Assembly: GCA_028278675.1 (NCBI GenBank)
Contig: JAQAJJ010000003.1
Coordinates: 63,042 to 127,041 of the forward strand
DNA: 64,000 nt
Direction of reading: 5' to 3'
From: Candidatus Azophilus lithoversatilis
GTDB lineage: Bacteria; Pseudomonadota; Gammaproteobacteria; Pseudomonadales; Azotimanducaceae
Part shown: piece after piece, positions 6,353 through 23,474 of the stretch
Position numbering within the stretch: position 1 is the stretch's first letter
Layout of the letters: each line of letters begins with the position of its first letter
Notes under the pieces: model-generated
Told to the model about the DNA's origin: nothing
What the model saw: the letters and a program-made list of their open reading frames with translations, nothing else
Databases searched by the model: none
Translations under genes and position numbers: made by a program

Positions 6353-7711
6353 TCACGCCTTCCTGAAGCGCCAGCCGTACATGAGGCGGCCGAAGAAGTT
6401 GAACCACTTTCTGGCCTCCGCGTCCTGAAACGGGTAGTCCGCGCCCATTTGCCGGGCAGTCGCCAGACCGGACAGGAGGCAGTGTTCCTGGCTGTTCATC
6501 AGCGTATGCGCTCCGCAATGCCACGTCCGCCGCTTGCCCTGCGCGAAGCGGAACAGATGAACCAAGAGGGCCACGTGGCGCACGTCGTGCACGACGTGCT
6601 GAAACCACCACGTCTTGACGATTTTGTCGCTGTCGATGGGGCTGATCGGGTTGTAGGTCACCAAGCAGGGCTTGTCCGAGTGATGCGCCCAAGGTTGCTG
6701 GTTGTGCATGATGTAGGTGATTTCGTAGTTGTCGGGCCTCGCGCCGTACTGTTCGATGTGGTTGCTTCTGGTGGCCAGCGGCTCGGCGGCGTTGTCCGGC
6801 AGCACGCTGGCGTCGGAGTGGACGATGGCATGGTTGTGCAGTTCGCTCTCGTAGCGGATTGACGAGAGCAGCCAGGCTTCAAAGAAGGTCGGTTTATCCA
6901 AGGCCATCAGCGTCTGGTTGGCGTTGCAGGCGAACACCACATCGTCGAACGTCTCCCGGTTTCCTTGCTCGTCCTCGACGATCACGTGGGATGCGAGCCG
7001 ATGCACTTTGCGGACTGGCCGGTTGAGATGGATCTTGTCTCGAAAACCCGCTGACAGCTCCTCGTAGATGCGCCGTGTGCCACCTTCCCAAGTCCGCATG
7101 GGTGTTGCCGAGACGATGTCGAAGAACTCCAGGTACCGGCAAAACAGCGAGGCTGGCATGTCGTACACGTTGGTGGCCATCAGGAAGTTGACGAACATGG
7201 GTTTGAGAACCTTGTACCGGAAGTCGCCGGAAAAGCGGCCGAAGTTGAGGATCGTGCCCATGCTGACGTAGTTGAACGGGTTGAGGGCATTGAGCAGTTT
7301 CGACCGGGACTGGTTGAGTTGGCCAAACCACTGCAGGCGCTTCAGCAGTTTCTGAAACTTGTCAATTTCCGGCTGCAGCGCGCGGCCGATCTCGCTGTCC
7401 AAGTCGTGCGCGTAGATCTCGCCACGATACTTCACGCTGTAGCTGAAGCGGGTGCCGACGAGGTTGATGCCGTACTGCTGCGTCAGGAGCAGGATGTGGT
7501 GGTACAGCGAGGGGATGCACGCCGTCACTGAAATGTCGAACGGGACCGAGCTGCCGTCTTCCTGCGGCATGTCCGCGGTGATCGCGTTGCCGCCGACCTG
7601 GGATTGGGCCTCAAAGAGCCGGAAGTCGAACTGGTCGGGCTGCTGATGCAGCGCGTAGGCAACGCCCAGCCCCGACACGCCCCCGCCGACGATGGCAATC
7701 CGTCTTGGCAT
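6353..7711 (-). CDS. FAD-dependent amine-oxidase/desaturase-like flavoprotein
   Basis: A 452-residue protein with the Rossmann FAD motif IAIVGGGVSGLGVAYAL at residues 5-21 and the second motif FEAQSQVGGNA, belonging to the predicted NAD/FAD-binding proteins related to carotenoid desaturases and amine oxidases (COG2907-like). Start ATG 7711 is supported by AAGGAG 5 nt upstream; the longer frame to 7786 reads into a dispersed repeat. It is divergent from squalene synthase and lies at the edge of the sterol island, so a role in isoprenoid or sterol redox chemistry (for example a side-chain or ring double bond) is an inference only. It is not a clear HpnE squalene-desaturase homologue. Confidence 0.72.
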   Translation of the reverse strand: MPRRIAIVGGGVSGLGVAYALHQQPDQFDFRLFEAQSQVGGNAITADMPQEDGSSVPFDISVTACIPSLYHHILLLTQQYGINLVGTRFSYSVKYRGEIYAHDLDSEIGRALQPEIDKFQKLLKRLQWFGQLNQSRSKLLNALNPFNYVSMGTILNFGRFSGDFRYKVLKPMFVNFLMATNVYDMPASLFCRYLEFFDIVSATPMRTWEGGTRRIYEELSAGFRDKIHLNRPVRKVHRLASHVIVEDEQGNRETFDDVVFACNANQTLMALDKPTFFEAWLLSSIRYESELHNHAIVHSDASVLPDNAAEPLATRSNHIEQYGARPDNYEITYIMHNQQPWAHHSDKPCLVTYNPISPIDSDKIVKTWWFQHVVHDVRHVALLVHLFRFAQGKRRTWHCGAHTLMNSQEHCLLSGLATARQMGADYPFQDAEARKWFNFFGRLMYGWRFRKA

Positions 7712-7726
7712 CTCCGCTCCTTGGTT

Positions 7727-7815
7727 TTCTTGATCGCGGCAAAAGACAACCGAATCAGCCAACTTCCGTGCCCGGCTACCGCCCACTCGTCGGTCTGAGG
7801 CAACGCCTCGTTGGC
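7727..7815. repeat. Dispersed ~90 bp repeat, copy 1
   Basis: Begins TTCTTGATCGCGG, has a core GCCCGGCTACCGCCC and ends with the hairpin GAGGCAACGCCTCG. The same ordered blocks occur at 49201, 49771 and 50111 in the ribosomal cluster, in the same orientation. This copy sits in the divergent control region between the flavoprotein gene and squalene synthase. Confidence 0.8.
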
Positions 7816-7956: not shown

Positions 7957-9075
7957 ATGTTGGTTGATTCAGAGCAAGGTCAGGATGCCATCGCGCCGGA
8001 AAGCGACTTGGCGTATCAGGTACTCGCTCTCCCGGGCGTTTCGCGCACCTTTGCCTTGACCATCCCGATCTTGCCGGATGACTTGGTCGCCGTGGTGACC
8101 AATGCCTACTTGCTTTGCCGCATCGCGGATACGATCGAGGACGATGCGGATTTGCCGAGCGCGCCGAAAGCGGCCGGTTTGCGTCAGTTTCTTGCCGTTG
8201 TGAGGGGGGATGGGGACGCCGCCGATTTTGCGGCATCCTTGTTGTCCCTACTGTCCCCGAACACACCGTCGGCCGAATTGGAGCTGGTGCGCAACGCTGC
8301 CAAGGTGATCCGCGTAACCCACGCGCTGACCGATGCTGAGCGATGCGCAGTGACCCGTTGCGTCACCGTCATGTGTACGGAAATGCCGAAATTCCAACGA
8401 AACGACTTGTCGGGACTCAAGAATATCGACGAACTCGATGCGTACTGCTATGCGGTTGCCGGGGTGGTCGGTGAAATGCTCTTTGAGTTGTTCTGCATTC
8501 GGTGCCCGGAACTCGAAAGGAAACGCCCGCGGATGCGGTCTTTGGCCGTGTCGTTCGGTCAGGGGCTGCAGATGACGAACATCTTGAAGGATGTCTGGGA
8601 CGATCGTCGCCGGGGAGTTTGCTGGCTGCCCCGGTCGGTGTTCGCAAACGGTGCCTTTCGGCTTGAACGCTTGGAGAGGCATCATCGGACCCAGGCGTTT
8701 GGGGACGGCCTCAACAAGCTGATCGCGATGACCCACGGCCATCTGCGCAATGCGCTGGAATTCACTTGCCACCTTCCCTCGCGAGAGCTGGGCATGCGGC
8801 GGTTTTGTCTTTGGGCACTCGGTCTCGCGGTGCTGACCCTACGCAAGATTCACGGCAATCCGCACTATAGGTCGTCTGAGCAGGTCAAGGTGTCGCGGCC
8901 GACGGTGCGCGCGACCGTTGCAGCCACTAACTTCATGGTGGCGCGCGACGGGGGTCTGCAATGGCTCTTCCGCTTGGCTGCCAACGGCCTCCCGCTGTCC
9001 AGGGTGCCGCTGAACAACTCCCATTCCCTCGGCGCCGCGCTGGTTGCGGATGGAAACGATGCTGCGGCGCAGTGA
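7957..9075 (+). CDS. Squalene synthase (farnesyl-diphosphate farnesyltransferase)
   Basis: A 372-residue all-helical prenyl synthase joining two farnesyl diphosphates to squalene. Both Asp-rich Mg-diphosphate motifs are present: DTIEDD at 58-63 and, near residue 205, QMTNILKDVWDDRRRG; PGVSRTFALTIPILP near the start is the usual N-terminal signature. One protein is present instead of the three-gene HpnCDE route. GGAGG lies only 1 nt before ATG 7957, so initiation at the adjacent TTG 7960 is possible. It converges on the cyclase gene, whose stop is 27 bp away, and supplies its substrate precursor. Confidence 0.92.
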   Translation: MLVDSEQGQDAIAPESDLAYQVLALPGVSRTFALTIPILPDDLVAVVTNAYLLCRIADTIEDDADLPSAPKAAGLRQFLAVVRGDGDAADFAASLLSLLSPNTPSAELELVRNAAKVIRVTHALTDAERCAVTRCVTVMCTEMPKFQRNDLSGLKNIDELDAYCYAVAGVVGEMLFELFCIRCPELERKRPRMRSLAVSFGQGLQMTNILKDVWDDRRRGVCWLPRSVFANGAFRLERLERHHRTQAFGDGLNKLIAMTHGHLRNALEFTCHLPSRELGMRRFCLWALGLAVLTLRKIHGNPHYRSSEQVKVSRPTVRATVAATNFMVARDGGLQWLFRLAANGLPLSRVPLNNSHSLGAALVADGNDAAAQ

Positions 9076-9102: not shown

Positions 9103-12100
9103 TCAGCCAGCCGCCGCGGCAGCGGTGAGCGGTTTCACGGCATCCTGCCGGGCAAGGCGTCGCCGCTCGTAGAGGCCGAGCGCGTGCAAGGGGAAGTACT
9201 GCCGATACAGGACATAATCGAGAAGCGCGGTGCGGAAAAAGACCCCGGCCATGTCTTGCCGGGGCCATGCCCCATCGGCGCCCTGGCTGTCGATCAGAAA
9301 CTGTGCGCCGCGGGAAATTGCCGTCCAGTTGGAGTCGCCCGCTTCAAGGAGCGCGATCAGCGCCCAAGCCGTTTGGATGACTTGGCTTTCCTCATGCGCG
9401 ACGTATCGCCCAGCGACGCATCCGCTGTGGTGCTCACCCCATCCCCCGTCGCTGTGCTGTCGGTCCACCAGCCACTGGCAGGCCAAGCGCACCGCCGGCT
9501 CGCCGGGATGGGCACCGGCGGCGAGCAGGCCCCTGATGCCGAAATAAGTGCCGTAGATAAACTGCACGCCCCAGGCACCGCGCCAGGAGCCATCGGTTGC
9601 CTGTGTTCGATGCAGCCAAGCGGCTGCTCTTGAGATGGCGCCGGTCACTGTCTGATCCACGACTTCAGAGGAGATATCTCCGCAGGCGGCAAGCGCCGCC
9701 AGGCAGGAAGCGGTGCATTCGACGTAGGAGTGCTCGGTCATCGAATCAGCAAACATCTCAGCGGGATTGAGCCACTCCAGACTCACTCGGGAGCGCTGCG
9801 GCTCGTAGCTCCCAAAGCCCCCATCCGCGTTCTGGCCACGCAGCATGAACTGAACCGCTTCGCGCAGTGCGCCGGCACTGATCGCGGTGCGATTGGCCGT
9901 GACGATCCCGAGCACGGCTTCCGCCGTGCAGTCCGACACGGGCCAGCCATGCCATGCACCGGGGAAACACCAGCCGCCTTTGGGGTCGGCCCGATACGCT
10001 TCGCGAAATCCGTCGAAGCTGTCGGTGATCTGTTGGCGACGCAGGAAGTCGGCGCCTTGTCGGAGCGCGTCCGGCACACCGGCAAGGTCAGGCACCGTCG
10101 CCAGCGCCTGCAGGGCGAATCCCGTATCCCAGGAGGCGCTTCTGGCACCGGTGACCCGGGTGCCATGCGCCTCGTCTTCCCAGATCCAGCCTTCGAGCTG
10201 CGCCAATGCTGCGCCGCAATCGGGGTCATCCCGATCATGCAGCCATAAGGCCAGGATGTTGAGGAAGCCGCTGACGGGCGAAATGCTCGCGTGGTTGGAA
10301 TGACGCAGTTCCCATCGAATGTGCCGGATGAGCTGCTCGGCGCATCGCCGGCGCAAGCCCTTTAAGCCCAGGCGTTCGAAGGCGCGCGCCGCCGCGTACC
10401 CGACCCGAAGCCAAGCGCTGGGCGGGGCGTAGAGGTCGCCTTCCCGCAGGCGGTTGCGGCTGGCGGGGAAATTGACGTTGGCAAACCCCTCTGGAAACAG
10501 TTCTTCCCGCAACGAGGCGATCAAGGGCGTAACAGGCGCTTGGAATCGATTCGAATAGACCGCCGCCATCGCCGCATATATGAGCCGAGTGTGGCAGTAC
10601 CAGTTCGAAGGATGCAGCGGCATCCAACGCGGCAAGCGCCACAGTTCCGGCACAACGGGGTTCACCCCCCGCCAGTCCCATAGACTGAGCAGCGCCAGCC
10701 AGAACTTTCCCCAGCTCGGGATGGTTTCCACCCGCTCGGCCCGCACGAATCGCCCGGCCCTTTGGATGAGCGCGTCGCCCGGCTCAACGCCGAGCAGTCG
10801 CGCAGCGACGTAAACTAGGGTGGTGACGAAGAGGTAGGGCGGTGAGTGCGCGTGCAAACCCCACGCGCCGCCTTCAAGTTGGGTCCGCTCGAATTGGCGC
10901 AGCACCAGCCGGCGCCGCTCCGGTTCGAGTGGTTGGTGGATGATGTGGTGCAGCAGGACATATTGCGCCGTGAGCATGGGGCACCAGACCATTTCACCTT
11001 CCCAAGCCCCATCAGCGTCTTGGAGAGCCAGCAAGCGGTGGGTTGCCCGCTGCAGCGCGGTGTCCGCAGCGACTCCGGTCGCGTCAGCCGGGTGAACCGG
11101 TCGGACATTGCGAACTTGCGCTTGCATGGAGGTCAGAAACGCGCGGGCCAGCTTGTCTTGAGCCTGATCGGCGAACTCATCGCTGGTGCTGGCTCTCTTG
11201 CGCAATTCCCGAATGCCGCGCAGGAAATACCCGACGCGCACGGTTAGTGCGTGAACGATGTCGCGGGCTTGGTGCCACGCAATCGCATTGTAGGATCGCA
11301 TGATCGCTCCAACGACGGCCCGGGCCACAATCGTGTAGAACGTGAGACCCAAACGGGTGACCGACTTGTTTTCACAGGCGAGCAGGCTCATGGTCTGGTC
11401 CCGGAGCTTGGGATTGGCCCGCCAGTTCTGGTAAATCGTTTGCCTGAGCACCGACGCTTCGACCCGATGATCGGCAAAGACCTCGTACAAGCCCATGGCA
11501 AGGGTCTCCGGAGCGCGGATTTCCAGCAAACGCTTGGCGGTGAACTCGTCAAAGCCCTGCCCGTCGGCTAGCGTGAGCGCATCGCCGAAACCGAGGGTCA
11601 TGCCCACCGCGGTCAACGGGTGGTAGTGCCCCGCCGCGTCTCCAATAAGCACTCGGCGTGAGTTCCCGTAGGTCACCCGGGGCCTCAACTCATTGGCGGC
11701 GGCTTGGAACTTCCCCTCCTGCAGGGCTTCAATGAACCCGGCACGGACCGTTTCCGGCAACAGGCTGGCGTAGGATTCCGATAGCATACTAACCCGATCT
11801 CGAGGGGTCCAGTGGTCCAACGGCACGTCGGCGATGATGCGGACGCGATGCGCTCCCACACGAAACATGAAAATCGGACCGGGTGCGCCAAGCACCACGT
11901 GCCCGTAACCTTCATAGGGCAGAGTCGCCCCTTCGGCCAAAAGGCCGACCATTCGGGAGCAGGTGATGCGCTTGGTTGTCAGGCCCAACGACTGACGGAC
12001 GACCGAGGCCCGACCGTCTGCGCCGACAATCCTTGCGGCTGGCAAGGACTGGGTCACGCCATCCAACGCGAAAGTGACCCGATCGTCGTCGACTGCCCGC

Positions 12101-12495
12101 ACTCGCGCCCCGCAGTAGAAGTCCACTCCGGGCTCGTTGGCGATCGTTGTGTGCAATCTCGAGATGAGCGCCTGGTGCTCGTACGCGAAGCCGATGGTGC
12201 CGTTTGGGTAAGGGAGCACGATCGGTTCCGAACGATCTTCCGGAAACACCACGAATCCCTTGCCGGCGTTGCCGTTGGGTTGGTCGTCGAGGTCGATCGC
12301 GAGATTGCGCAATATCCTTAGGGCCGGCGGGTGGAGCCATTCCCCCGCCAACCGGCGAGCTGCCTTGGGATTGGCTTCGAGCAGAGCGACTCGGGCACCT
12401 TTGCGGGCGTGAGCGAGCGCGCAAACGCTGCCCACCGGACCGGCGCCGACGACAGCGATGTCGTAGCGCGCTTGCGGCAATGGGGTGCCCCTCAA
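9103..12495 (-). CDS. Squalene monooxygenase - oxidosqualene cyclase fusion protein
   Basis: 1,130 residues holding two consecutive sterol enzymes. Residues ~10-430 are a squalene monooxygenase: GAGPVG at 17-22, GADGRASVVRQ at 158-167, GPIFMFRVGAHRVRIIADVP at 206-225 and GDAAGHYHPLTAVGMTLGF at 285-303, which matches the eukaryotic HPLTGGGMT segment. After a short charged linker, residues ~475-1115 are an oxidosqualene cyclase with at least six QW repeats (for example QNADGGFGSYE), the WYCHTR segment (His635) and VSDCTAE with catalytic Asp855; there is no DxDD squalene-hopene motif. Val two residues before the Asp is the lanosterol-synthase state. No stop lies between the domains. The start TTG 12495 overlaps the CYP51 stop; TTG 12480 has a better ribosome site (GAGGGG). 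Expected product: lanosterol or a close isomer from squalene and O2. Confidence 0.93.
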   Translation of the reverse strand: MRGTPLPQARYDIAVVGAGPVGSVCALAHARKGARVALLEANPKAARRLAGEWLHPPALRILRNLAIDLDDQPNGNAGKGFVVFPEDRSEPIVLPYPNGTIGFAYEHQALISRLHTTIANEPGVDFYCGARVRAVDDDRVTFALDGVTQSLPAARIVGADGRASVVRQSLGLTTKRITCSRMVGLLAEGATLPYEGYGHVVLGAPGPIFMFRVGAHRVRIIADVPLDHWTPRDRVSMLSESYASLLPETVRAGFIEALQEGKFQAAANELRPRVTYGNSRRVLIGDAAGHYHPLTAVGMTLGFGDALTLADGQGFDEFTAKRLLEIRAPETLAMGLYEVFADHRVEASVLRQTIYQNWRANPKLRDQTMSLLACENKSVTRLGLTFYTIVARAVVGAIMRSYNAIAWHQARDIVHALTVRVGYFLRGIRELRKRASTSDEFADQAQDKLARAFLTSMQAQVRNVRPVHPADATGVAADTALQRATHRLLALQDADGAWEGEMVWCPMLTAQYVLLHHIIHQPLEPERRRLVLRQFERTQLEGGAWGLHAHSPPYLFVTTLVYVAARLLGVEPGDALIQRAGRFVRAERVETIPSWGKFWLALLSLWDWRGVNPVVPELWRLPRWMPLHPSNWYCHTRLIYAAMAAVYSNRFQAPVTPLIASLREELFPEGFANVNFPASRNRLREGDLYAPPSAWLRVGYAAARAFERLGLKGLRRRCAEQLIRHIRWELRHSNHASISPVSGFLNILALWLHDRDDPDCGAALAQLEGWIWEDEAHGTRVTGARSASWDTGFALQALATVPDLAGVPDALRQGADFLRRQQITDSFDGFREAYRADPKGGWCFPGAWHGWPVSDCTAEAVLGIVTANRTAISAGALREAVQFMLRGQNADGGFGSYEPQRSRVSLEWLNPAEMFADSMTEHSYVECTASCLAALAACGDISSEVVDQTVTGAISRAAAWLHRTQATDGSWRGAWGVQFIYGTYFGIRGLLAAGAHPGEPAVRLACQWLVDRQHSDGGWGEHHSGCVAGRYVAHEESQVIQTAWALIALLEAGDSNWTAISRGAQFLIDSQGADGAWPRQDMAGVFFRTALLDYVLYRQYFPLHALGLYERRRLARQDAVKPLTAAAAAG

Positions 12496-13889
12496 CGAAA
12501 AACGCTCGACTGCGAGCGACTACGGTAGCGGACCCGGCACGGCGTCTGAGGACCGGTCACCCAGCTGCCGTAATTCGGCCCTGGAAACGCGCTGTCGAGG
12601 AAAAAGTCGAAGCGTTCCAACAGCACCGTCCAGATGGCCTTGATTTGCATGATGGCAAAGTGTTTGCCCATGCACCGGTGGCGTCCCCCGCCAAAACCGA
12701 TCAAGGTGTACTGGTGTTGCTTGCCTTCGGACGCGGGCGGGGCGAAACGATCCGGGAAGAATCGCTCGGGGTTGGCGAACACCTCGGGCAGCCGGTGGGA
12801 GACCGCTGGCGACACCATGGCCAGGGTGCCGGCAGGTACCAGGCGATCCCGGTACCGCATGGGCTTGAGCACCTTGCGGATGAGAATGATCAGCGGCGGG
12901 TGCAGCCGTTCACACTCGCGCACGGCATTTTCCAACTGCAGTTGTTGCTTCAGGCCCGAGAAGCTTATGGCGCCTGCTTCGCCATACACCGTCCGCACCT
13001 CCTCTCTCACCCGTTCGAGGTAAGCGGTTGCCCTGAACATCTCCAATCCGGTCCAAGTGGCGAGGACCGCGCTGGTGTGTTGACCGGCGAACAATGCCGA
13101 CAGCAGGATTCCCGTAATCTCATCGTCGGTCAGCGCCCGGCCATCCTTGTAGCGGGCTCGCATGAGCGAGCCCATGAAGTCATGGGACTCCGCTTCCGAA
13201 AGCCGCCGTTCCCGCATGATGCGGCTGAAGATCTCGGTCACTTTGCGCCGCGCCCGGTCACGCTTTCGATGCGCCGGGATGGGCAGCCTCGGGAGAAAGA
13301 ACCCCAGCGTGTTGATGCCGTTCTGAAGATCGTGATACGCCTCGGCAAAACCAGCGTCCACCTCATTCCGAACTTCCTCGCCGAGGAAGCAGCGGCTGGC
13401 GATGTTGACCGTGAGTTGGTTCATCGCCACCGGCAGATCCAATTCCCCTTCCTCGTCCAGGGAATCAGCGAACAGGTTCGATTCCTCGAACATAATGCGA
13501 GCGAACCTCTCCATCGCCGATTCGCGCAGCGCCGGAAACAGAAATCCGAGTTGCTCGCTCATGAGTTCCGGAGAGACGTCGTAGGCCACGCCGCGCCCAA
13601 AGATCGGCACGGTGAACTGATAGACGGACTTGGCGTCCAGCTGATCGTCAGGTGCCTTGAAGTAGGCCGTGTGAGCGTCGGGCCCGGCGAACAGAACGAA
13701 ATTCTGGGGACCGAGCTGGAATTGGTAAAGGTCACCCAGCTCGCGCGAGCCGCGTTCCAGCATCGAGACCGGGTTCTTCTGGAACTCGCCTAGATGGCGG
13801 AGCAGGGCCCAGCCCCCCAGCAGCTCTGGAACGGCAGTAGCCGCCTGCTCCGAATGTGGTGTTGTGGCCCCATTTGATCGGTGCGCCAT
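12492..13889 (-). CDS. cyp51: Sterol 14-alpha-demethylase, cytochrome P450 CYP51
   Basis: A 465-residue P450. The CYP51 marks are all there: YQFTVPIFGRGVAYD at 90-104 (substrate region), FAGQHTS at 267-273 in helix I, an ExxR helix in ECERLHPP, and the heme loop FGGGRHRCMGKHFA with Cys406. It removes the C-14 methyl of lanosterol-type sterols in three O2-dependent steps. A longer frame to 14129 exists, but ATG 13889, 8 nt after the preceding stop and behind an AGGG site, fits the family. Unlike the known Methylococcus enzyme there is no fused ferredoxin domain, so a separate electron donor is needed. Its stop overlaps the start of the fusion gene by 4 nt. Confidence 0.93.
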   Translation of the reverse strand: MAHRSNGATTPHSEQAATAVPELLGGWALLRHLGEFQKNPVSMLERGSRELGDLYQFQLGPQNFVLFAGPDAHTAYFKAPDDQLDAKSVYQFTVPIFGRGVAYDVSPELMSEQLGFLFPALRESAMERFARIMFEESNLFADSLDEEGELDLPVAMNQLTVNIASRCFLGEEVRNEVDAGFAEAYHDLQNGINTLGFFLPRLPIPAHRKRDRARRKVTEIFSRIMRERRLSEAESHDFMGSLMRARYKDGRALTDDEITGILLSALFAGQHTSAVLATWTGLEMFRATAYLERVREEVRTVYGEAGAISFSGLKQQLQLENAVRECERLHPPLIILIRKVLKPMRYRDRLVPAGTLAMVSPAVSHRLPEVFANPERFFPDRFAPPASEGKQHQYTLIGFGGGRHRCMGKHFAIMQIKAIWTVLLERFDFFLDSAFPGPNYGSWVTGPQTPCRVRYRSRSQSSVFR

Positions 13890-13897
13890 CACCGCCC

Positions 13898-14971
13898 TCA
13901 ATAGACATAGGGCAGCATCGAAAAACGCGCCCGCTGCTTGTACTGATCCCAGAGCGCACCGTACTTGGCGTGACACCGCCGGTCGTCGCGTCTGGAACGA
14001 TGCAATAGCAATCCGGTCAGCCAGGCGGGCAGCAGCCACGGCACCCAAGACTCGAACCCGGCGGTCGCAATGAAGGCGACGTAGATGCAGATCTCGCCAG
14101 TGTAGTTGAGGTGGCGTCCTATGCCCCAAAAGCCGGACACGAGGAGTCGCCCCTCAAGGGTCTCCGCCGGCTGGCCCCAGATGGTGATGTTTGGATCCTG
14201 CTTGAAGCGGTGCTTCTGATCATTGGCGCCCCGGAACAGCCAGAAGCCGAACGCAAACAACGCCACGAGCAGGGTGGCGGCAGTGGGCGAAAGCGTATCG
14301 GGGGCGTGAACCAGCCACCAGCCCGCGATGCAGTAGAAGAACGGCACCAGCACGAAGTTCCCCCATGCCAGCATCCACCCGAAACGCTCGCTTACGATGT
14401 CCCAAGTGTGGATCATCCCGTATTCGAACTGGAAATAGTTGAGCACGTAAAGGAAGGTGAAAATCTGGTAGAGCGTCATCGCCAACGTTAGCCCGCCGTA
14501 GGTTTCGTATTGGACGGCGGCAAACGACAGGTTGAACAGTGCCAAGGCAATGAGGGATGGACGATAGCTGAAGAACTTCAAATCCATGCCGAGCCGAGTG
14601 GGGTTTAGCGTCCGACCGAGAAAGAAGCCGCGGCAAAATCCCGCTGGCGCGCCTTGGGTGCCAGCGCCTTGCCAGTAGAGCCAACCGGAGAGCGCGAAGG
14701 CGAACAGGTTGGCTGCTACCAACAAGGGGACGAAGTGGGTATGCAGCACGGACAGGGAGAACCAACCCGCAAACTGGGCAAGGCCAACTGCGGCCAAGGT
14801 GGCAAGGAACAGGACGAGGCCGTTGAGCTTGCAGGTGCGCGACGCGTTGTCGGCATCGGTCAATGCAAACCGTCGCCCGGGCAGCAGCAGGGAGCCCACG
14901 AACAGCGCGACGACGAATGCCAGCAGCATCGCCGCTGCCCCTAGTGTCTCGTCAAGCGTCATACGTCGCAT
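13898..14971 (-). CDS. ERG4/ERG24-family sterol reductase, probably sterol C-14 reductase
   Basis: A polytopic membrane protein of about 357 residues and eight or more hydrophobic segments. The family signature LLVSGFWGIGRHLNYTGE is at about residues 275-292, and the C-terminal motif (CHAKYGALWDQYKQRARFSM, ending LPYVY) is intact. Members reduce sterol double bonds with NADPH: C-14, C-7 or C-24(28). Directly upstream of CYP51 in one operon, C-14 reduction of the CYP51 product is the best guess. Start ATG 14971 (or 14962) is preferred; the frame runs on to 15166, overlapping the Rieske gene, but those 65 residues are low-complexity and look non-coding. Confidence 0.85.
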   Translation of the reverse strand: MRRMTLDETLGAAAMLLAFVVALFVGSLLLPGRRFALTDADNASRTCKLNGLVLFLATLAAVGLAQFAGWFSLSVLHTHFVPLLVAANLFAFALSGWLYWQGAGTQGAPAGFCRGFFLGRTLNPTRLGMDLKFFSYRPSLIALALFNLSFAAVQYETYGGLTLAMTLYQIFTFLYVLNYFQFEYGMIHTWDIVSERFGWMLAWGNFVLVPFFYCIAGWWLVHAPDTLSPTAATLLVALFAFGFWLFRGANDQKHRFKQDPNITIWGQPAETLEGRLLVSGFWGIGRHLNYTGEICIYVAFIATAGFESWVPWLLPAWLTGLLLHRSRRDDRRCHAKYGALWDQYKQRARFSMLPYVY

Positions 14972-15146
14972 CAGAGCTTCGGCGGCGCTCCCGAAGGGCG
15001 TCCGCCCCTTGGCCCGTGGCCGCGTTGCGCCCCTTGCCAATGGAGCTGGCCATTGCCTGCGTGTCGCGCCTTGCCACGAACCAAGGGGCGAACGCTGATG
15101 CGACAGCAGGGCGCCACCGGACAGCGGGGATAGCAATTCGGCCCGC

Positions 15147-16244
15147 TCAAGCCCCGCCATGGCCATTCTCCGTCTCGCGCTCCAGATGCTCGCGCCACTT
15201 GCGGACGGTCACGGCCTGGAAGGCCTGCACCGCCGGGCTCAATTCGACGGGCGTGGCGTCCCAGTGCCGCTCGTAGCCGACTTGCTCCGCTTCTACCGCA
15301 AACCGGTCCTGGTCGAGCAGGGGCGCGATCAGCAGGCGGTTCGAGAGCTTCAGGACTGCCTCCATGGCGAACCGGGGAATCCGCACCGGCAACAGGGGCA
15401 TCTTTAGCGACTTGAAGTAGAACAGAAAGAACACGCGGGTGGTGCGCTCATCGATCGGCAGCACGAACAGCCAGTGCTTGATGGCGTCATCCGTGTTCGA
15501 CCACTGGTAGGGATATTCGAAGCAAAGGTCCATGTGGCTGGTGTCAATCCGGTCGTGTTCGACGAAGCGCCCGGAGATGCGCCCGCGACCCACTTGGGCA
15601 TCGTAGGCAACATGCACGTTGTCGCCGACGGTCTCGCAGCGGGTGAGCTGGGCGTTGTCGAAAGGCCGGTAACGGCGGTGCAGATGGGCATGGGAGAAGT
15701 CGCTCACGTTGTCGATGATCATCGAGTGGTGGGACGACCAAGTGAAAACCAGCGGCACGCACGCCCATCGATCGGGGCCTTCGAGTTCAGGGATGTTCGG
15801 AACCTTGTGCGTTTGCGCCAACTCCGGGTCGCCGGGAAAGAGCCAGACCAAGCCGTAGCGCACCTTGACGGGATAGGTCCTAAGCCGCAGTTTCGGGAAC
15901 CCTCGTCCGTACCGCTCGTGAGGGATTTCGACGCACTGTCCGTTTTCATCGTATTGCCAACCGTGGTAGGCGCACACCAGCCGGCAGCCCTTGACGTCGC
16001 CCAAGGAGAGCTTGATTTGGCGATGTGCGCAACGGTTCTCGACAGCGTGGAACGAACCGTCCTCGGCGCGGAACAGCGCGATGGAGCGCTTCCAGAAAAC
16101 CACCTCGCCCACGGTCCCCGGCGCCACTCGGCGGACTTCCTCGACCGCGTACCAGTAGTTCGGGTCCATGCCGGCGGCGCGCGCCTGCTGGCGCAACCGC
16201 GAGGCGTCCTCGAAGGCGGGTGGCGCTTGCGGCACGGGGTTCAT
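15147..16244 (-). CDS. sdmA: Rieske oxygenase, SdmA-type sterol C-4 demethylase
   Basis: 365 residues. The Rieske [2Fe-2S] site is C72-x-H74 and C91-x2-H94 (CAHRQIKLSLGDVKGCRLVC region), followed by FFLFYFKSLK and, for the mononuclear iron, the D182/H185/H189 cluster in DNVSDFSHAHLHRRY. In Methylococcus capsulatus a Rieske enzyme, SdmA, works with the dehydrogenase SdmB to remove a C-4 methyl from sterols, replacing the eukaryotic ERG25/26/27 set. Here the same two families overlap by ATGA beside CYP51, so the assignment rests on family plus context. A cholesterol-7-desaturase-like role is the main alternative. A reductase partner is not encoded nearby. Confidence 0.85.
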   Translation of the reverse strand: MNPVPQAPPAFEDASRLRQQARAAGMDPNYWYAVEEVRRVAPGTVGEVVFWKRSIALFRAEDGSFHAVENRCAHRQIKLSLGDVKGCRLVCAYHGWQYDENGQCVEIPHERYGRGFPKLRLRTYPVKVRYGLVWLFPGDPELAQTHKVPNIPELEGPDRWACVPLVFTWSSHHSMIIDNVSDFSHAHLHRRYRPFDNAQLTRCETVGDNVHVAYDAQVGRGRISGRFVEHDRIDTSHMDLCFEYPYQWSNTDDAIKHWLFVLPIDERTTRVFFLFYFKSLKMPLLPVRIPRFAMEAVLKLSNRLLIAPLLDQDRFAVEAEQVGYERHWDATPVELSPAVQAFQAVTVRKWREHLERETENGHGGA

Positions 16245-17413
16245 GTCGGTCCGGCGCCGGCCGCCATGCCGGCCTCGTCAAATTTGGCCAGTGGAGCTTC
16301 CCGGTCCTCCGCATTCAAGCTGGGGGGCTTGGCGCGCGGGTTCCTGATGGCGTTGCGCTGGTAGTGAAACGCGTACGCCTCGTGAACCGCGGCCCGGATG
16401 TTTGTCGGCTGGTAGCCCAGCTCGCGTTTGGCCTTCTCGTTGTTGGCATGGCGCCGCATCTTCAGCAGCCGGATGGCGCCGGGCGTGAAGCGTTGGGGGA
16501 AGTTGGGGTGGTAGCGGCTTAGATAGAAGCTCGCCACTTCGGAAAAGACGTACATCAAGGGCGTCGGAATCCGCCGATGCGGCCGGGGAACGCCCGAGAC
16601 CTCCGCATAGAGGTCGATGATGTCGGAAATGGTCTTGTACTCGGTGCTGAAGATGTACTTCTCGCCGCTGCGGCCTTTGCTCATGCACAAAAGATGTCCC
16701 TGCACGATGTCCCGGGCCGCGACGAAAGCGAATCCGCCGTCCACGTAGGCATGAAGCTTGCCTTGGCTGTAGTCGCACAAGGTCCTTCCCAAACGCGAGG
16801 GGACGAAGTCCGCGCCTCCGACGACCGCGCAGCAGGTCGCGATGACGACGTCCTGACCAGCCGCAGCGGCGCGCAGGCATTCGTGTTCAACGAGAACCTT
16901 GCTGCGCTCATATGGCATGGTGCGATCCATGGGGTAGAACTGCATCGTTTCGTCGCTCGGTGCCGACGGGTCGTCAAGATTATAGCCTACTGCGCTGAAA
17001 GAGCCAGTGACCACCACGCGACCGGCCTGCGCCTCCCTGGCGGCCTGCAGGACGTTGCGGGTGCCGAGCACGTTGCACTCGAACACCTCCCGGCGATGGG
17101 CGTTGTTGCCGTCGATTGTGGACACCTTGGCCGCGCAGTGGTAAACGCCTTGGCAACCTTCGAGGGTGCGCCGGGTCGCCTCAAGGTCCCGGATGTCCGC
17201 ATAGGCCCGCTCCACCTCGAGGCCCTCCAAGGCTTCGTTCGGACTCTCCCGTCTCAACAGCACTCGGACCCGAACGCCGTCGTCAAGGAGCCGGCGCACG
17301 AGATTGGCGCCCACATGTCCAGATGAGCCGGTCACCAAAACGGGTGCCGCCGAGGGCGCGGCTGTGAAACCCTCTACCGCGTTCGATTGCGATGCCGTGC
17401 GATCATCTGACAC
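16241..17413 (-). CDS. sdmB: NAD(P)-dependent 3-beta-hydroxysteroid dehydrogenase/epimerase, SdmB-type
   Basis: A 390-residue extended short-chain dehydrogenase: TGSSGHVG at 28-35 binds the cofactor and Y168-x3-K172 (YERSK) is the catalytic pair. The 3-beta-HSD branch is suggested by the motif VYHCAAKVST and the long C-terminal part. As the presumed SdmB it would oxidise the 3-hydroxyl and drive loss of the C-4 carboxyl formed by SdmA, then restore the alcohol. It is the first gene of the five-gene minus-strand sterol operon; the start is GTG 17413 with AGGTGG 7 nt upstream. Overlap with sdmA by 4 nt implies coupled translation. Confidence 0.85.
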   Translation of the reverse strand: MSDDRTASQSNAVEGFTAAPSAAPVLVTGSSGHVGANLVRRLLDDGVRVRVLLRRESPNEALEGLEVERAYADIRDLEATRRTLEGCQGVYHCAAKVSTIDGNNAHRREVFECNVLGTRNVLQAAREAQAGRVVVTGSFSAVGYNLDDPSAPSDETMQFYPMDRTMPYERSKVLVEHECLRAAAAGQDVVIATCCAVVGGADFVPSRLGRTLCDYSQGKLHAYVDGGFAFVAARDIVQGHLLCMSKGRSGEKYIFSTEYKTISDIIDLYAEVSGVPRPHRRIPTPLMYVFSEVASFYLSRYHPNFPQRFTPGAIRLLKMRRHANNEKAKRELGYQPTNIRAAVHEAYAFHYQRNAIRNPRAKPPSLNAEDREAPLAKFDEAGMAAGAGPT

Positions 17414-17919: not shown

Positions 17920-19377
17920 ATGACCGAGATTGCGTTTCTCTCCGCCACGGAGCTTGCGGCCAAAATCCGCGGCAAGGAGATCGGCTGCGAGGAGTTGCTG
18001 CGGCACTACCTGGACCGGGTGGACCGCTACAACGGCGAACTCAACGCGCTGGTGGTGGACTTGCGCGAACGGGCCTTGGACGATGCTCGCGAAGCCGACC
18101 GAGCCATCGCCGGGGGCGGCGAGCTCGGTCCCCTGCACGGGGTGCCGATGACGGTGAAGGAGTCCTACAACGTGACGGGCACGCCCACCACTTGGGGCAA
18201 CGTCGACTGGAAGGACAACATCGCCGCTGAGGACGCCGAGCCGGTGCGCAGGCTCAAGGCGGCGGGTGCGGTGGTGTTTGGCAAGACCAACGTGCCCCTG
18301 ATGCTGGCGGACTTTCAGAGCTACAACGACCTCTATGGCACCACCAACAATCCCTACGACTTGAAGCGCATTCCCGGCGGCTCCTCCGGAGGGTCAGCGG
18401 CGGCGCTGGCGGCGGGCCTCACCGGCATTGAGACCGGCTCCGACATCGGCGGGTCCATCCGCAATCCGGCGCACTTCTGTGGCGTGTTCGGCCACAAGCC
18501 CACCTGGAATCTGCTTTGGATGCGCGGCCATGCGCCGCCAGGGGATGTGCGCAGCAAGCCGGACATCTCCGTTATCGGCCCACTGGCCCGCTCGGCGGCG
18601 GACTTGGAGACCGCCCTGCTGGCCATGGCGGGGCCGGACGACATCATGGTGCGGGGCTACCGTCTGGACCTGCCCAACCTCAACGGCCGCACGCTTGAGG
18701 ACCTGAAGGTGGCCGTCTGGGTCGATGACGACATGGCTCCGGTCGATGCTGAGGTGCGGCGCCGGGTGGAGCAGGTGGCGGCGGCCTTTCGCGACGGCGG
18801 TGCCGAGGTCAACCTGACGGCGCGGCCCGGCTTCGATCCCGCGCACAGCCACGCGACCTACCAGAACTTGCTGCAAGCCACCATGGCGGCGCGCATGCCG
18901 GAGGCGGAATACGACAAGATCAAGCGCCACGTGGAGACGTTGGCCGCCGATGACGACAGCGCTTCGGCGCGCATCTTTCGCGCCCAGGTGTCGTCTTTCA
19001 AGATGTGGAAGCACAACGATGAGCAACGGGCGCACCTGCGCTGGAAGTGGCATGAGTTCTTCAACGACTACGATTTGCTGATCGCCCCGATCATGGCCAC
19101 CGCCGCCATGCCCCACGACCAGCGGCCCTTTGGCGAACGCACCGTCACCGTCAACAACGAGCAGCGGCCGTACTTCGAGCAGGTGTTCTGGGCGGGTCTG
19201 ACTGGCGGGAGCTACCTGCCGTCCACGGTCATTCCCACCGGGTTGAATGCCGATGGGCTGCCCGTTGGGGTGCAGATCGCCGGGCCCGAATACGGCGATC
19301 TCATCACCATCGGCGCGGCCAAGCTGATGGAGGCGAGTGGCTTTGCCTTCACGCCACCACCGGCTTACGCGAGCTGA
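17920..19377 (+). CDS. Amidase, amidase-signature family
   Basis: 485 residues with the complete Ser-cisSer-Lys triad: Lys80 in MTVKESYNVTG, Ser155 in GGSSGGSAAAL and nucleophile Ser179 in GSDIGGSIRNPA. Such enzymes hydrolyse amide bonds; the substrate is not predictable. ATG 17920 has GGAG 8 nt upstream. Its stop and the start of the decarboxylase gene share one base (TGATG), so it is the first gene of the mevalonate operon and translationally coupled to it. Why an amidase leads an isoprenoid operon is unclear; co-transcription could be accidental or could reflect an amide-containing lipid substrate. Confidence 0.9.
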   Translation: MTEIAFLSATELAAKIRGKEIGCEELLRHYLDRVDRYNGELNALVVDLRERALDDAREADRAIAGGGELGPLHGVPMTVKESYNVTGTPTTWGNVDWKDNIAAEDAEPVRRLKAAGAVVFGKTNVPLMLADFQSYNDLYGTTNNPYDLKRIPGGSSGGSAAALAAGLTGIETGSDIGGSIRNPAHFCGVFGHKPTWNLLWMRGHAPPGDVRSKPDISVIGPLARSAADLETALLAMAGPDDIMVRGYRLDLPNLNGRTLEDLKVAVWVDDDMAPVDAEVRRRVEQVAAAFRDGGAEVNLTARPGFDPAHSHATYQNLLQATMAARMPEAEYDKIKRHVETLAADDDSASARIFRAQVSSFKMWKHNDEQRAHLRWKWHEFFNDYDLLIAPIMATAAMPHDQRPFGERTVTVNNEQRPYFEQVFWAGLTGGSYLPSTVIPTGLNADGLPVGVQIAGPEYGDLITIGAAKLMEASGFAFTPPPAYAS

Positions 19378-20318
19378 TGCAAACAACGGCCATCGCCCAT
19401 TCCAACATCGCCCTGCTAAAATACTGGGGTAAGCAGGATGGGCCGGGAAACCGTCCGGCAACGCCGTCGCTGTCCATTACCTTGGATGCCCTGACCACCA
19501 CCACCACCGTCGAGGACGCCCATGCCGATGCGCTCCGGCTGAACGGCTGCGCGATCCGCGACGCCAAGATCGAGAGGACCTTGGCCGAATGGCGGCGGGA
19601 TTGCGCAATCGGTCCGTTGGCCATTTCAAGCCGCAACAATTTCCCGACCGCGGCCGGGCTCGCCTCCTCGGCGTCCGGCTTCGCCGCCTTGGCGACTGCC
19701 ATCGACGCCCATTGCGGACTGCGCTTGAGCGCTGGCGAGCGTTCGGCCATGGCCCGGCGCGGCTCAGCTTCGGCGGCCCGCTCCATTCATGGCGGCTTTG
19801 TCGCGTTGGCGGCGCCGAATTGGCGTGGCGCCCAAGTGCTGGCCCCGGACGCTTGGCCGCTGGCCGTCGTGGTCGCCATCACCGCCTCGGAGCCGAAGGC
19901 GGTGTCCTCAACAGCGGGCATGGAGCGTTCCAAGGCGACGTCACCCTACTTTGGGGCTTGGACCGAGGCGGCAAGCGCGGACTTTGAAATCTTGAAGGCA
20001 GCCATCACCCACCGGGACTTCGACGCTTTGGCGGAACTTGCCGAGGCGAGCTGCCTTAAAATGCACGCGCTCATGCTGAGCAGCCGGCCACCGCTCATCT
20101 ATTGGCACGGCGCCACCGTCGAGTGCCTGCGAACCCTTCGTGAACTGCGCGCCGGCGGCTGCCGGGTCTTTGGCACCGTGGACGCGGGCCCCCAGGTCAA
20201 GGCTGTTTGCGAGCGCCAGGATGTCGAGCAGGTCGAGGCCGCCCTGCAAGACGTTCCGGGGGTGGAGAGCACACTGCGCTCGGGGCTCGGCGGCGGTGCC
20301 CGGGTTACGGATTCGTGA
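19377..20318 (+). CDS. mvaD: Diphosphomevalonate decarboxylase
   Basis: A 313-residue GHMP-fold enzyme that phosphorylates and decarboxylates mevalonate 5-diphosphate to isopentenyl diphosphate. Family motifs are intact: NIALLKYWGKQDGPGNRP near the N-terminus, the ATP loop NNFPTAAGLASSASGFAAL, the Arg-containing GSASAARSIHGGF, STAGMERSKATSPYF, and the catalytic Asp in GTVDAGPQVKAVC. Start ATG 19377 overlaps the amidase stop by one base; the phosphomevalonate kinase start overlaps its own stop. It provides the last step of the classical mevalonate route for squalene synthase. Confidence 0.95.
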   Translation: MQTTAIAHSNIALLKYWGKQDGPGNRPATPSLSITLDALTTTTTVEDAHADALRLNGCAIRDAKIERTLAEWRRDCAIGPLAISSRNNFPTAAGLASSASGFAALATAIDAHCGLRLSAGERSAMARRGSASAARSIHGGFVALAAPNWRGAQVLAPDAWPLAVVVAITASEPKAVSSTAGMERSKATSPYFGAWTEAASADFEILKAAITHRDFDALAELAEASCLKMHALMLSSRPPLIYWHGATVECLRTLRELRAGGCRVFGTVDAGPQVKAVCERQDVEQVEAALQDVPGVESTLRSGLGGGARVTDS

Positions 20319-21253
20319 TCGCTGGCCGCGCCCCCGGCAAGGCGGTGCTCTGGGGCGAATATGCGGTGCTCGCCGGAGCGCCTGCAGCCGTTCTGGCGGT
20401 GGATCGGCATGCCGTCTGCGAACTGACGCCAAGCGCAGCCTACCGCTTCATCGCCAGCGGTTACGAGGCCCCGGAAGCGGAGTTCCGCCACCTGCCTCCT
20501 CATCCTCCAAAGGCCGCTCCTGCGGCTTTGTTGGCATGGCGAGTGTTGCAAACCGTTGTTGGGGAGGGCCTGCGCCCGGCCACCTTCCGGCTGGGCACCG
20601 ACGCCTTCTATTCGAAGGGCCGCAAACTCGGCCTCGGCTCCAGCGCCGCCCTCTGCGTCGCCATCGAAGGCGCTTGCGCCAGCTGGCTCGGCCAAGCGCC
20701 TTGCTATGAGCGGGCAATGACCGCCCACCGCCGATTTCAAGGCGGTCGGGGCAGCGGCATCGATGTGGCGGCGGCTTTTTTTGGCGGAGCGCTGCGCTTT
20801 CAGGAGGGCAAGGCGCAGCCGCTGGCGGCTGCTTTGCCCGAACTCCGCATCGTATGGACCGGCGTGGGCGCCGACACCGGGCGTCACATCGACCGCTTGG
20901 CCTCATACTTAAGCGGCGACGACACCTTGGCACTCGATCGACTCGCTGAGTGTTCGCAAGGCCTATGTCGAGAGCCGAGCTTGGATGCGCTCAACGACTA
21001 TGCGCAGGCGTTGCGGCAACTTGACCGAGCTGCGGACCTTGGCATCTACACGGAGGCCCACCGACGGGCGGAATCGCTTGCAAAAGTCTATAAACTTGCC
21101 TATAAACCCTGTGGCGCGGGCGGTGGGGACATCGGCGCGGCGTTTGCGCAGTCTCCCGGCCAATTCGCCGATTTTGAGGTCGCCGCAGGGATGGCGGGTT
21201 TGACGGTTTTAGACTTGGAGGCTGCTCCTCATGGCATCGAAATCCGCAACTGA
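20315..21253 (+). CDS. Phosphomevalonate kinase
   Basis: A 312-residue GHMP kinase: GRAPGKAVLWGEYAVLAGAP at the N-terminus, the ATP-binding loop KLGLGSSAALCVAIEGA, GSGIDVAAAFFGGAL and the C-terminal KPCGAGGGDIGAAFA. This arrangement fits ERG8/PMK-type phosphomevalonate kinases rather than mevalonate kinase. The frame is open back to 20207 but those 36 residues are Arg/Gly-rich; GTG 20315, overlapping the mvaD stop as GTGA, puts the start right before the conserved motif. Its 3' end overlaps the next gene by 23 bp. Confidence 0.9.
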   Translation: MIAGRAPGKAVLWGEYAVLAGAPAAVLAVDRHAVCELTPSAAYRFIASGYEAPEAEFRHLPPHPPKAAPAALLAWRVLQTVVGEGLRPATFRLGTDAFYSKGRKLGLGSSAALCVAIEGACASWLGQAPCYERAMTAHRRFQGGRGSGIDVAAAFFGGALRFQEGKAQPLAAALPELRIVWTGVGADTGRHIDRLASYLSGDDTLALDRLAECSQGLCREPSLDALNDYAQALRQLDRAADLGIYTEAHRRAESLAKVYKLAYKPCGAGGGDIGAAFAQSPGQFADFEVAAGMAGLTVLDLEAAPHGIEIRN

Positions 21254-23474
21254 GCGCAGTTCGCGCATCCCCAATTTCTTTCGCTTAAGCGTTGCCGAGC
21301 GCATTGACGCCCTGCGCCAGCGCGGATTGCTGAGCGCCGGCGACAAGCGGCTGCTTGCCAGCGGCGAACACGGCCTCAGCTTGCCGGTGGCGGACAAGAT
21401 GATCGAGAACGTGATCGGCGTTTTCGGCTTGCCGCTCGGACTTGGCCTGAATTTCCTCATCAACGGCCGCGACTATGCGGTGCCCTTGGTGGTGGAGGAG
21501 CCCTCCATCGTCGCCGGGTTGTCGGGATCTGCCCGGGTCGCCCGGCTGGGCGGTGGATTTGCCGCTGAGAGCACCGATCCGGTGCTGATCGGCCAGGTGC
21601 AGGTGGTCGGGGCACCCGACCCGGAGGCGGCCCGCCAGCGCCTGATCGACGAGCGGGAGGCCATCTTGGCGCTCGCCAACAGCCTGCATCCGAAGATGGT
21701 CGCCCGGGGCGGCGGCGCGACCGACGTAGAGGCCTTCGTCCATCAGCAGACGGGCGATGCCCCCATGGTGGTGCTGCACCTGCTTGTGGACACCCGCGAC
21801 GCCATGGGCGCGAATCTGGTCAACACCATGTGCGAAGGCGTGGCTTCACTGGTGGAGACGCTGACCGACGGCAAGGTCTTTCTGCGCATTCTCTCCAACC
21901 TCACCGACCGTGCCTTGGCTCGGGCCAGCGTGCGCATCCCCGCCGCCAACTTGGAAGGCAAGGGCTATACTGGCGAGCAGGTGCGCGACGGCGTGGTGCT
22001 GGCGAGCGATCTGGCGCAGATCGACCCCTATCGGGCGACCACCCACAACAAGGGCATCATGAACGGCGTGGATGCCGTGGCCATCGCCACGGGCAACGAC
22101 TGGCGCGCCATCGAAGCCGCCGCCCACGCCTATGCGGCTCGCAGCGGCCTGTACAAGGCACTGTCGCGGTGGCGCAGCGACGAGGCCGGTGATCTGGTCG
22201 GGGAGATCGAAATGCCCATGAAGGTGGGCACTCGGGGCGCCTCGCTGGAATCCAACCCCAGTGTGCGCATCAATCACCAGATTCTCGGCGCCTCCTCGGC
22301 CACCGAGCTGGCCGGCGTCATGGCCGCGGTGGGGCTGGCGCAGAATTTCGCCGCCTTGCGGGCGCTTTCGACGGCGGGCATTCAGCAAGGGCACATGACC
22401 CTGCACGCCCGCAGCGTAGCCAGCACCGCCGGCGCTCCCGAGGCCGTCTTTGACCAGGTGGTGGACGCGCTGATCGAAAGCGGCGAGATCAAAGTGTGGA
22501 AAGCGAAGGAGATCGTCCGCAACCTGATGCGCAGGGCCACCACCGCGGATCAGGTCCAACGCAGTTCGGCCTGCGGCAAGGTGATTCTGCTCGGCGAACA
22601 TGCCGTGGTGTACGGCCGCCCCGCCATCGCCCTGCCTGTGCCGTTGGCAGTGGAGGCTCATGTGCGCAAGGGCGGCGATGGCGTGCAACTGGTCATCCCG
22701 CGCTGGGGCCTGGAGCAAAGGGTGGCGCCGGACCAGCGCCAGGGCGTCTCCGCCACCCTGAACATCATCCTTGAAGCGCTCGATGTCGTGGGCCAACCCA
22801 TGTTGATCGAGGTCATGCCGCACCTGCCGAGAGCCATGGGCCTGGGCGCGTCGGCGGCGTTGGCAGTGGCGGTGATTCGTGCCATCGGCGACGCCTTTGA
22901 ACTGGGCTTGACGGACGACTTCGTCAATCAAGTCGCCTTTGAATGTGAAAAGACCGCCCACGGCACACCTTCCGGCATCGACAACACGGTGGCCACCTAC
23001 GGGTCGAGCGTTCAATATCAAACTGACGGCAAAACGCCCCGCTTCAAGGCGCTCCGCCTGCCTGAAGCACTGCCCCTGGTGATCGGCATGACCGGAGAGG
23101 AAAGCCTGACCGCCAAGACTGTCGCCGGAGTGCGCGCCGCATGGACCGAGTACCCCGAACGCTACGAGGCCATCTTTGACCAAATCGCGGATCTGACCTT
23201 GGCCGGTGCGGACGCCATTGCGTCGGCTCGCTTCAGCGAATTGGGCCAGGTGATGAACCTGTGCCACGGCTACTTGAACGCCTTGCAGCTCTCCACCCCG
23301 GCCTTGGAGGCCCTGATCCACGTTGCTCGGGACCATGGTGCCTGGGGCGCCAAGCTGACCGGCGGGGGCGGTGGCGGCTCCATGGTCGCCCTATGTCCGG
23401 ACAACCAGGAGCAAGTGGCCGAAGCCATGCGAATGGCGGGCTTCAAGGCCTTGCCAGTGACGGTTGGGGGATAG
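21231..23474 (+). CDS. HMG-CoA reductase (class II) - mevalonate kinase fusion protein
   Basis: 747 residues. Residues ~1-435 are a class II (bacterial) HMG-CoA reductase: ENVIGVFGLPLGLGLNFLIN at 59-78, EEPSIVA with Glu90, DTRDAMGAN at 187-195, HNKGIMNG with Lys274 and GHMTLHARS with His388. Residues ~443-745 are a mevalonate kinase: SACGKVILLGEHAVVYG at 446-462, HLPRAMGLGASAALAVAV at 531-548, HGTPSGIDNTVATYG at 577-591 and KLTGGGGGGSMVAL at 708-721. The joint near residue 440 has no stop. One chain would convert HMG-CoA to mevalonate and on to phosphomevalonate, feeding the two upstream enzymes. A GGAGG site precedes ATG 21231. Confidence 0.94.
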   Translation: MASKSATERSSRIPNFFRLSVAERIDALRQRGLLSAGDKRLLASGEHGLSLPVADKMIENVIGVFGLPLGLGLNFLINGRDYAVPLVVEEPSIVAGLSGSARVARLGGGFAAESTDPVLIGQVQVVGAPDPEAARQRLIDEREAILALANSLHPKMVARGGGATDVEAFVHQQTGDAPMVVLHLLVDTRDAMGANLVNTMCEGVASLVETLTDGKVFLRILSNLTDRALARASVRIPAANLEGKGYTGEQVRDGVVLASDLAQIDPYRATTHNKGIMNGVDAVAIATGNDWRAIEAAAHAYAARSGLYKALSRWRSDEAGDLVGEIEMPMKVGTRGASLESNPSVRINHQILGASSATELAGVMAAVGLAQNFAALRALSTAGIQQGHMTLHARSVASTAGAPEAVFDQVVDALIESGEIKVWKAKEIVRNLMRRATTADQVQRSSACGKVILLGEHAVVYGRPAIALPVPLAVEAHVRKGGDGVQLVIPRWGLEQRVAPDQRQGVSATLNIILEALDVVGQPMLIEVMPHLPRAMGLGASAALAVAVIRAIGDAFELGLTDDFVNQVAFECEKTAHGTPSGIDNTVATYGSSVQYQTDGKTPRFKALRLPEALPLVIGMTGEESLTAKTVAGVRAAWTEYPERYEAIFDQIADLTLAGADAIASARFSELGQVMNLCHGYLNALQLSTPALEALIHVARDHGAWGAKLTGGGGGGSMVALCPDNQEQVAEAMRMAGFKALPVTVGG

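Follow-up and report, generated by a model that had tools for sequence, protein, structure and literature searches.

A fused squalene monooxygenase/oxidosqualene cyclase gene in a bacterial sterol locus, and its split relatives

Introduction

Can a bacterium carry squalene monooxygenase and oxidosqualene cyclase (OSC) as a single protein, and how does such a protein relate to the separate enzymes of its relatives? The question is raised by a gene in a 64,000-nucleotide stretch of DNA (hereafter, the window) from Candidatus Azophilus lithoversatilis (contig JAQAJJ010000003.1, positions 63,042 to 127,041), whose genome comprises 3.77 Mb in 104 contigs. The initial annotation of the window described one 1,130-codon frame at 9103–12495 carrying both enzymes. 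These coordinates are right, the gene lies on the minus strand, the frame is free of stops and Pfam domains of both enzymes are present: a fused epoxidase-cyclase is the right reading of the gene. Because the fusion is already mentioned in print (PMC7074536; PMC10070321), the gene is a further member of a known architecture and the surprise is modest. What the present analysis adds is that the same pair also occurs unfused, including within a single bacterial family.

The Fused Gene and Its Relatives

Read from 12495 to 9103, the frame spans 1130 codons without an internal stop. A TTG at 12495 shares bases with the stop codon of the adjacent P450 gene, and GAGGGG precedes a second TTG at 12480; this upstream GAGGGG, together with the database record of the same protein (P0002), whose 1125 residues fit a start at 12480, makes the second TTG the likelier start. 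Four Pfam domains, all exceeding the Pfam cut-offs, cover the protein: FAD_binding_3 (residues 11–310), Squalene epoxidase (PF08491; 157–397, 92 bits vs. a cut-off of 20.1), SQHop_cyclase_N (482–775, 177 bits) and SQHop_cyclase_C (786–1110, 195 bits). No second cyclase gene was found in the window's genome.

Fused relatives are numerous. A first protein search returned 1481 matches, of which the best 120, the ones listed, are 1111–1186 residues long and share 65–100% identity with the query over 76–100% of its length. Of 307 candidate stretches from a scan of species genomes, 193 proved to be relatives, and the best 80, which span most or nearly the whole of the query, were retained; because the scan patterns derive from the monooxygenase half and long matches rank higher, this set leans toward fused forms. 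Both domains lie in one open frame at 79 of these best 80 of 193 loci, the architecture that the initial annotation had proposed to seek in related genomes; at the remaining locus, L071, the frame is broken within the cyclase. The full-length fused proteins gathered number 203. In the collected sets, most of them chosen for their similarity to the fused protein, fused forms are more numerous than split forms.

Among the 97 genomes around the window's, itself included, eight gave a match: the window's own, five fusions (59–85% identity), three of which are the same genes as loci L005, L041 and L064, and two cyclase-only matches (28–29%). The nearest named relative, L005, comes from a Pseudomonadales metagenome-assembled genome (MAG); identity to it is 72% in the two blocks flanking the junction between the domains, 64% at residues 101–150 and 78–96% elsewhere. 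Across 398 genomes from the window's phylum (own included), the fusion was found in the window's own only, and 50 others match one half only. In the class of a Chloroflexota MAG (G489), a cyclase is present in 16 of 245 genomes, 14 of them with both domains in one frame; the other two carriers show a truncated frame (L121/L136) and a contig end (L134/L137).

On the 79-locus tree, nine named phyla (75 rows; the four rows of unknown phylum were left out) need eight changes, which is the minimum, so that the tree gives no indication of frequent recent exchange among phyla. Median identity is 66.0% across phyla (1586 pairs) vs. 66.6% within a phylum (1189 pairs), and this near equality hints at old transfer. 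Record titles of some related loci name sponges (Spongia_Bin9, lac_sponge_s2o1), and the window's organism is likely a sponge symbiont. Distant fused proteins, all partial, were also seen: P0238 (by eye, with an N-terminal extension), P0357 (Myxococcota), P0334 (Burkholderiales), P0345 and P0347. The fusion may extend beyond the sponge-type group.

Unfused relatives were retrieved with pieces of the fused protein as queries; 30 cyclase/monooxygenase pairs were matched by contigs of equal size, a proxy, and DNA of split genes comes from three genomes (loci L147–L149). In the family of an Acidimicrobiaceae MAG (G488), a cyclase is present in 10 of 51 genomes: seven carriers have a single frame of 1116–1146 residues, and three have two frames. 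In the search for split genes, 1 of 247 genomes from the class of G488 has a cyclase. At L147–L149, the cyclase gene comes immediately after the monooxygenase gene, both on one strand (in L147, for example, TGAGAGGATG); enzymes and order are those of the fusion, but a stop and a new start separate the two genes. Since relatives carry adjacent unfused genes in the same order, fused and split forms are two states of one locus type. The initial annotation had contrasted the fusion with two adjacent genes in known bacterial sterol loci; such adjacent pairs do exist, but the fusion is likewise on record. At L148 and L149 (genomes G997 and G985), an SdmB-SdmA pair lies directly before the split genes, and CYP51 is found on another contig.

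History of Fused and Split Forms

Two states of one locus type may be separated by one event or by several. A combined tree was built from both domains (1063 columns) of 25 fused proteins and 11 paired split ones; trees of fused and split forms used the LG+G4 model, the FastTree tree excepted. Forcing the fused proteins of this 36-row tree into one clade costs 81.7 log-likelihood units (approximately unbiased (AU) test, p = 0.022), and the minimum number of state changes is four on the combined tree, five on the cyclase tree and four on the monooxygenase tree. Taken at face value, these results favour several interconversions, by repeated fission or repeated fusion, over one main event, with at least four changes needed; because the genes of a split pair are neighbours in the same order, gain or loss of a single stop would be enough.

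The rejection of a single fused clade, however, hinges on one split pair, P0182/P0250, matched by contigs of equal size, whose domains are firmly nested in the fused clade, close to the window's subgroup. Once P0182 is removed, a single clade of all fused rows is no worse a fit (p = 0.77), and with P0138 removed too it fits better than the inferred tree (p = 0.85); when P0138 alone is removed, one fused clade is rejected (p = 0.0005), and a clade of fused proteins plus P0182 is not rejected (p = 0.33). P0182 was seen at the protein level, and a single sequencing error creating a stop would look alike. Provided that its DNA is sound, the pair is a candidate for reversal from fused to split; otherwise it may reflect one false stop.

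The position of the root is unsure, too: the monooxygenase outgroup mixes fused partial proteins (P0357, P0345, P0347, P0334) with apparently separate ones. The first-branching ingroup rows are fused in two trees, one of them the monooxygenase tree; in the FastTree tree a split pair, P0198 and P0212, branches early with weak support, and the careful cyclase tree does not resolve the branching order. Several interconversions are accordingly conceivable but rather doubtful, and an earlier claim of repeated fission ("at least four times") was withdrawn. Because the rejection disappears once P0182 is removed, the trees are compatible with one event between the fused and split clades, plus the split pair P0182/P0250 inside the fused one. 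A more ambitious scenario, in which an old fusion, acting as a rigid unit over the membrane that retains oxidosqualene, is common to sponge-associated bacteria of many phyla and was re-split more than once, would be improbable.

Predicted Function and Product

Homology predicts with good confidence that the gene product epoxidises squalene and then cyclises 2,3-oxidosqualene to lanosterol, likely at the membrane. The N-terminal half has the Squalene epoxidase domain of squalene monooxygenases (SQLE/ERG1) above its curated cut-off and the human SQLE fold, including motifs for flavin adenine dinucleotide (FAD). The cyclase half carries the DCTAE catalytic motif (D855-C856-T857), scores 502 bits with the squalene/oxidosqualene cyclase model TIGR01787 (cut-off 322.7) and retains Val853, as do 203 of 203 fused proteins. 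A squalene-hopene cyclase (SHC) identity was rejected: the domain is nearer OSC (human LSS, 416 bits) than SHC (186 bits), and hopene_cyclase (TIGR01507) scores 259 on the fused protein, under its cut-off of 431.

Several observations weigh against this assignment. Human SQLE Tyr195, an important active-site residue, corresponds to Phe81; Phe stands there in 203 of 203 fused proteins and in 14 of the 15 further monooxygenase rows compared. As Tyr195 belongs to a single characterised member and is no requirement of the family, the domain is nonetheless classed as a squalene monooxygenase. The NCBIfam model osq_cycl (TIGR03463) gives the whole protein 723 bits, under its cut-off of 851. The cyclase half agrees with the human enzyme at 16 of the 26 positions compared and differs at 10; human Thr381 is Ala784 here, with Ala in 202 of 203 fused proteins. 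The initial annotation's "all key motifs" is close to correct, the DCTAE and FAD motifs being present; with these replacements, the rate or the product could differ. As to the locus, none of the queried neighbours was found at 19 of the 80 loci, partly owing to contig ends, and no match to CYP51 at E <= 1e-40 was found in the eight searched carriers of G488's family other than those of L148 and L149, namely all seven fused genomes and one split.

The cyclase half might then yield parkeol, cycloartenol, an arborane-type compound or a mixture instead of lanosterol. Ala784 speaks for such a product, and the portions of the literature searched yielded no activity test of a fused enzyme. The invariant Val853 argues in the opposite direction, as does a Calothrix protein (P0231, NIES-4071) with the same residues at the seven positions compared: the Osc of Calothrix sp. 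NIES-4105 gave lanosterol in E. coli, according to the part of that report consulted (PMC10202945). This result counts if P0231 is, as assumed, a near twin of the NIES-4105 enzyme. A product other than lanosterol is, on this evidence, unlikely.

For lanosterol as the product, homology and fold suggest the following route. The FAD domain would act on squalene supplied by the adjacent squalene synthase, using O2 and reduced flavin to form oxidosqualene; the tethered cyclase would protonate the epoxide via Asp855 and form lanosterol, Val853 being the residue type read as lanosterol-forming; and the CYP51-, ERG24-, SdmA- and SdmB-like enzymes would remove the C-14 and C-4 methyls. By its sequence, the fusion keeps the two enzymes side by side at a fixed ratio, and the 1:1 stoichiometry that the initial annotation pointed to follows from the fusion itself. 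Direct passage of oxidosqualene from one domain to the other would be a further, putative step, put forward as a hypothesis.

Junction and Integrity of the Protein

The domains are joined by about 40 residues (436–474). Of the 203 full-length fused proteins, 162 have a junction of 50 residues, and the range over all is 46–56. A conserved monooxygenase tail (LARAFLxS) corresponds to about residues 446–458 of the junction; since split monooxygenases keep this tail, the tether proper is about residues 459–474 only. An AlphaFold2 model of the whole protein, made from an alignment of 108 diverse rows, has a mean predicted local distance difference test score (pLDDT) of 89.4 and a predicted template modelling score (pTM) of 0.87; it replaced an earlier, poor model from 20 close rows (pLDDT 56.9, pTM 0.44). 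In the prediction, the two domains are held in a fixed relative arrangement.

A real frame might nonetheless release a separate cyclase, by internal initiation or by proteolysis. GGGAAGGTGAA lies before the ATG at residue 502, and the equivalent Met is the listed start of some split or cyclase-only proteins (P0139, P0212, P0136, P0133). The DNA before Met502, however, encodes a conserved WEGEM and need not be a signal, a cyclase begun there would be without the first helix of the domain, and no ribosome-site-like stretch is seen by eye before Met457; release of a separate cyclase is thus very unlikely. An assembly or gene-calling artefact that joined two adjacent genes can be dismissed: a stop lost between separate genes such as those of L147–L149 would look like a fusion, but an architecture shared by 79 of 80 loci from many assemblies and by 203 proteins, the narrow range of junction lengths and 85% identity over the whole length to a same-genus relative led to the rejection of chance or an assembly error for the family.

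Gene Neighbourhood

The fused gene ends a same-strand series (Table 1) that runs SdmB-like, SdmA-like, ERG24-like and CYP51-like, with the fusion directly after. SdmA and SdmB are the best NCBIfam models for their two genes. Upstream neighbours are shared by most of the 64 loci with more than 5.5 kb upstream: CYP51-like genes at 54, SdmB-like at 54, ERG24-like at 53 and SdmA-like at 53. The squalene synthase-like gene was found anywhere on only 10 of the 68 loci with more than 2.5 kb downstream.

Table 1. The fused gene, its parts and its sterol-gene neighbours in the window
Feature	Coordinates	Strand	Evidence
Squalene synthase-like gene	7957..9075	+	Pfam SQS_PSY 174 bits; TIGR01559 96 bits, under cut-off 286.75; convergent with the fusion
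Fused squalene monooxygenase/oxidosqualene cyclase gene	9103..12495	-	Open reading frame; probable start TTG 12480
Lanosterol-synthase-like oxidosqualene cyclase domain	9145..11073	-	Residues 475-1117
Junction between domains	11074..11190	-	Residues 436-474
Squalene-monooxygenase-like domain	11191..12471	-	Residues 9-435
CYP51-like sterol 14-demethylase	12492..14129	-	Pfam p450; best solved relatives Cytochrome P450 51, 361 bits; probable start 13892 or 13889
ERG24-like delta-14 sterol reductase	13898..15166	-	Pfam ERG4_ERG24 228 bits; 4quv delta(14)-sterol reductase 240 bits; probable start 14971 or 14962
SdmA-like Rieske oxygenase, predicted C-4 demethylation	15147..16244	-	NF052579 SdmA 406 bits, under cut-off 600
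SdmB-like dehydrogenase, predicted C-4 demethylation	16241..17413	-	NF052578 SdmB 309 bits, under cut-off 600

Further genes lie around this series. Downstream of the squalene synthase-like gene is a flavin-containing amine-oxidase-like gene (6353–7786, minus strand; Pfam Amino_oxidase, 58 bits), and amine-oxidase-like genes similarly flank the fusion in several related loci. The genome has one match to the sterol methyltransferase C-terminal domain (PF08498, 78 bits), on another contig (L111, G000 C66:685-876), which hints at side-chain alkylated sterols. On the plus strand, a diphosphomevalonate decarboxylase-like gene and a GHMP kinase gene (phosphomevalonate kinase-like, under the NCBIfam cut-off) at 19377–21253 precede a second fusion at 21231–23474, a frame of 747 residues with 3-hydroxy-3-methylglutaryl-CoA reductase (HMGR; residues 3–393, TIGR00532, 404 bits) and mevalonate kinase (447–721, TIGR00549, 237 bits). 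With these genes at 19377–23474, much of a mevalonate pathway stands beside the sterol genes. Matches to the HMGR-mevalonate kinase fusion lie in the flanks of L005 (truncated at the locus end), L022, L024, L026 and L037; among the papers listed by a literature search on such fusions, no title appeared relevant.

Known Systems and Meaning

Three reports describe related loci. A fused squalene monooxygenase (SMO)/OSC, MsbE, was found in sponge bacteria together with other msb genes (PMC7074536, 2020). As described there, MsbE has both domains in one protein and a key valine read as lanosterol type, as here, and the letters msbA-E stand for oxidoreductase, Rieske protein, sterol reductase, demethylase and fusion, the order seen in the window. 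Compared by this description, the window's gene is of the MsbE type: a single frame encodes both domains, next to genes for CYP51, ERG24, a Rieske protein and a short-chain dehydrogenase/reductase. The msb cluster differs in also having a sterol methyltransferase gene, the corresponding match here being on another contig, and in having its squalene synthase on another scaffold, whereas the squalene synthase gene of the window adjoins the fusion. A protein from an "uncultured bacterium" (P0096, 66% identity) could be the MsbE record.

In a study of metagenomes, including those of sponge symbionts with SdmA/SdmB, "Fused SMO/OSC homologs" were trimmed before tree building (PMC10070321, 2023); the domain fusion is the same, and the methods passage that names these homologs gives neither sequence nor activity. 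Finally, 115 of 537 genomes of Ircinia symbionts, drawn from ten phyla, were reported to carry ERG24-CYP51-LSS/ERG7 clusters, with evidence for horizontal transfer (PMC9531527, 2022). Their gene order is that of the window, and the 3,765-position LSS/ERG7 alignment and the 5,910 bp mean cluster length would fit a fused gene (in the window, 14971 to 9103 is 5,869 bp), although the gene is named LSS/ERG7 and "fused" has no occurrence in the main text of that paper.

The fusion takes in the two reactions by which squalene is committed to sterols. Within a single family, fused and split forms offer matched pairs for asking whether tethering alters oxidosqualene flux or leakage, and both forms bear on the extent to which sponge bacteria make their own sterols.
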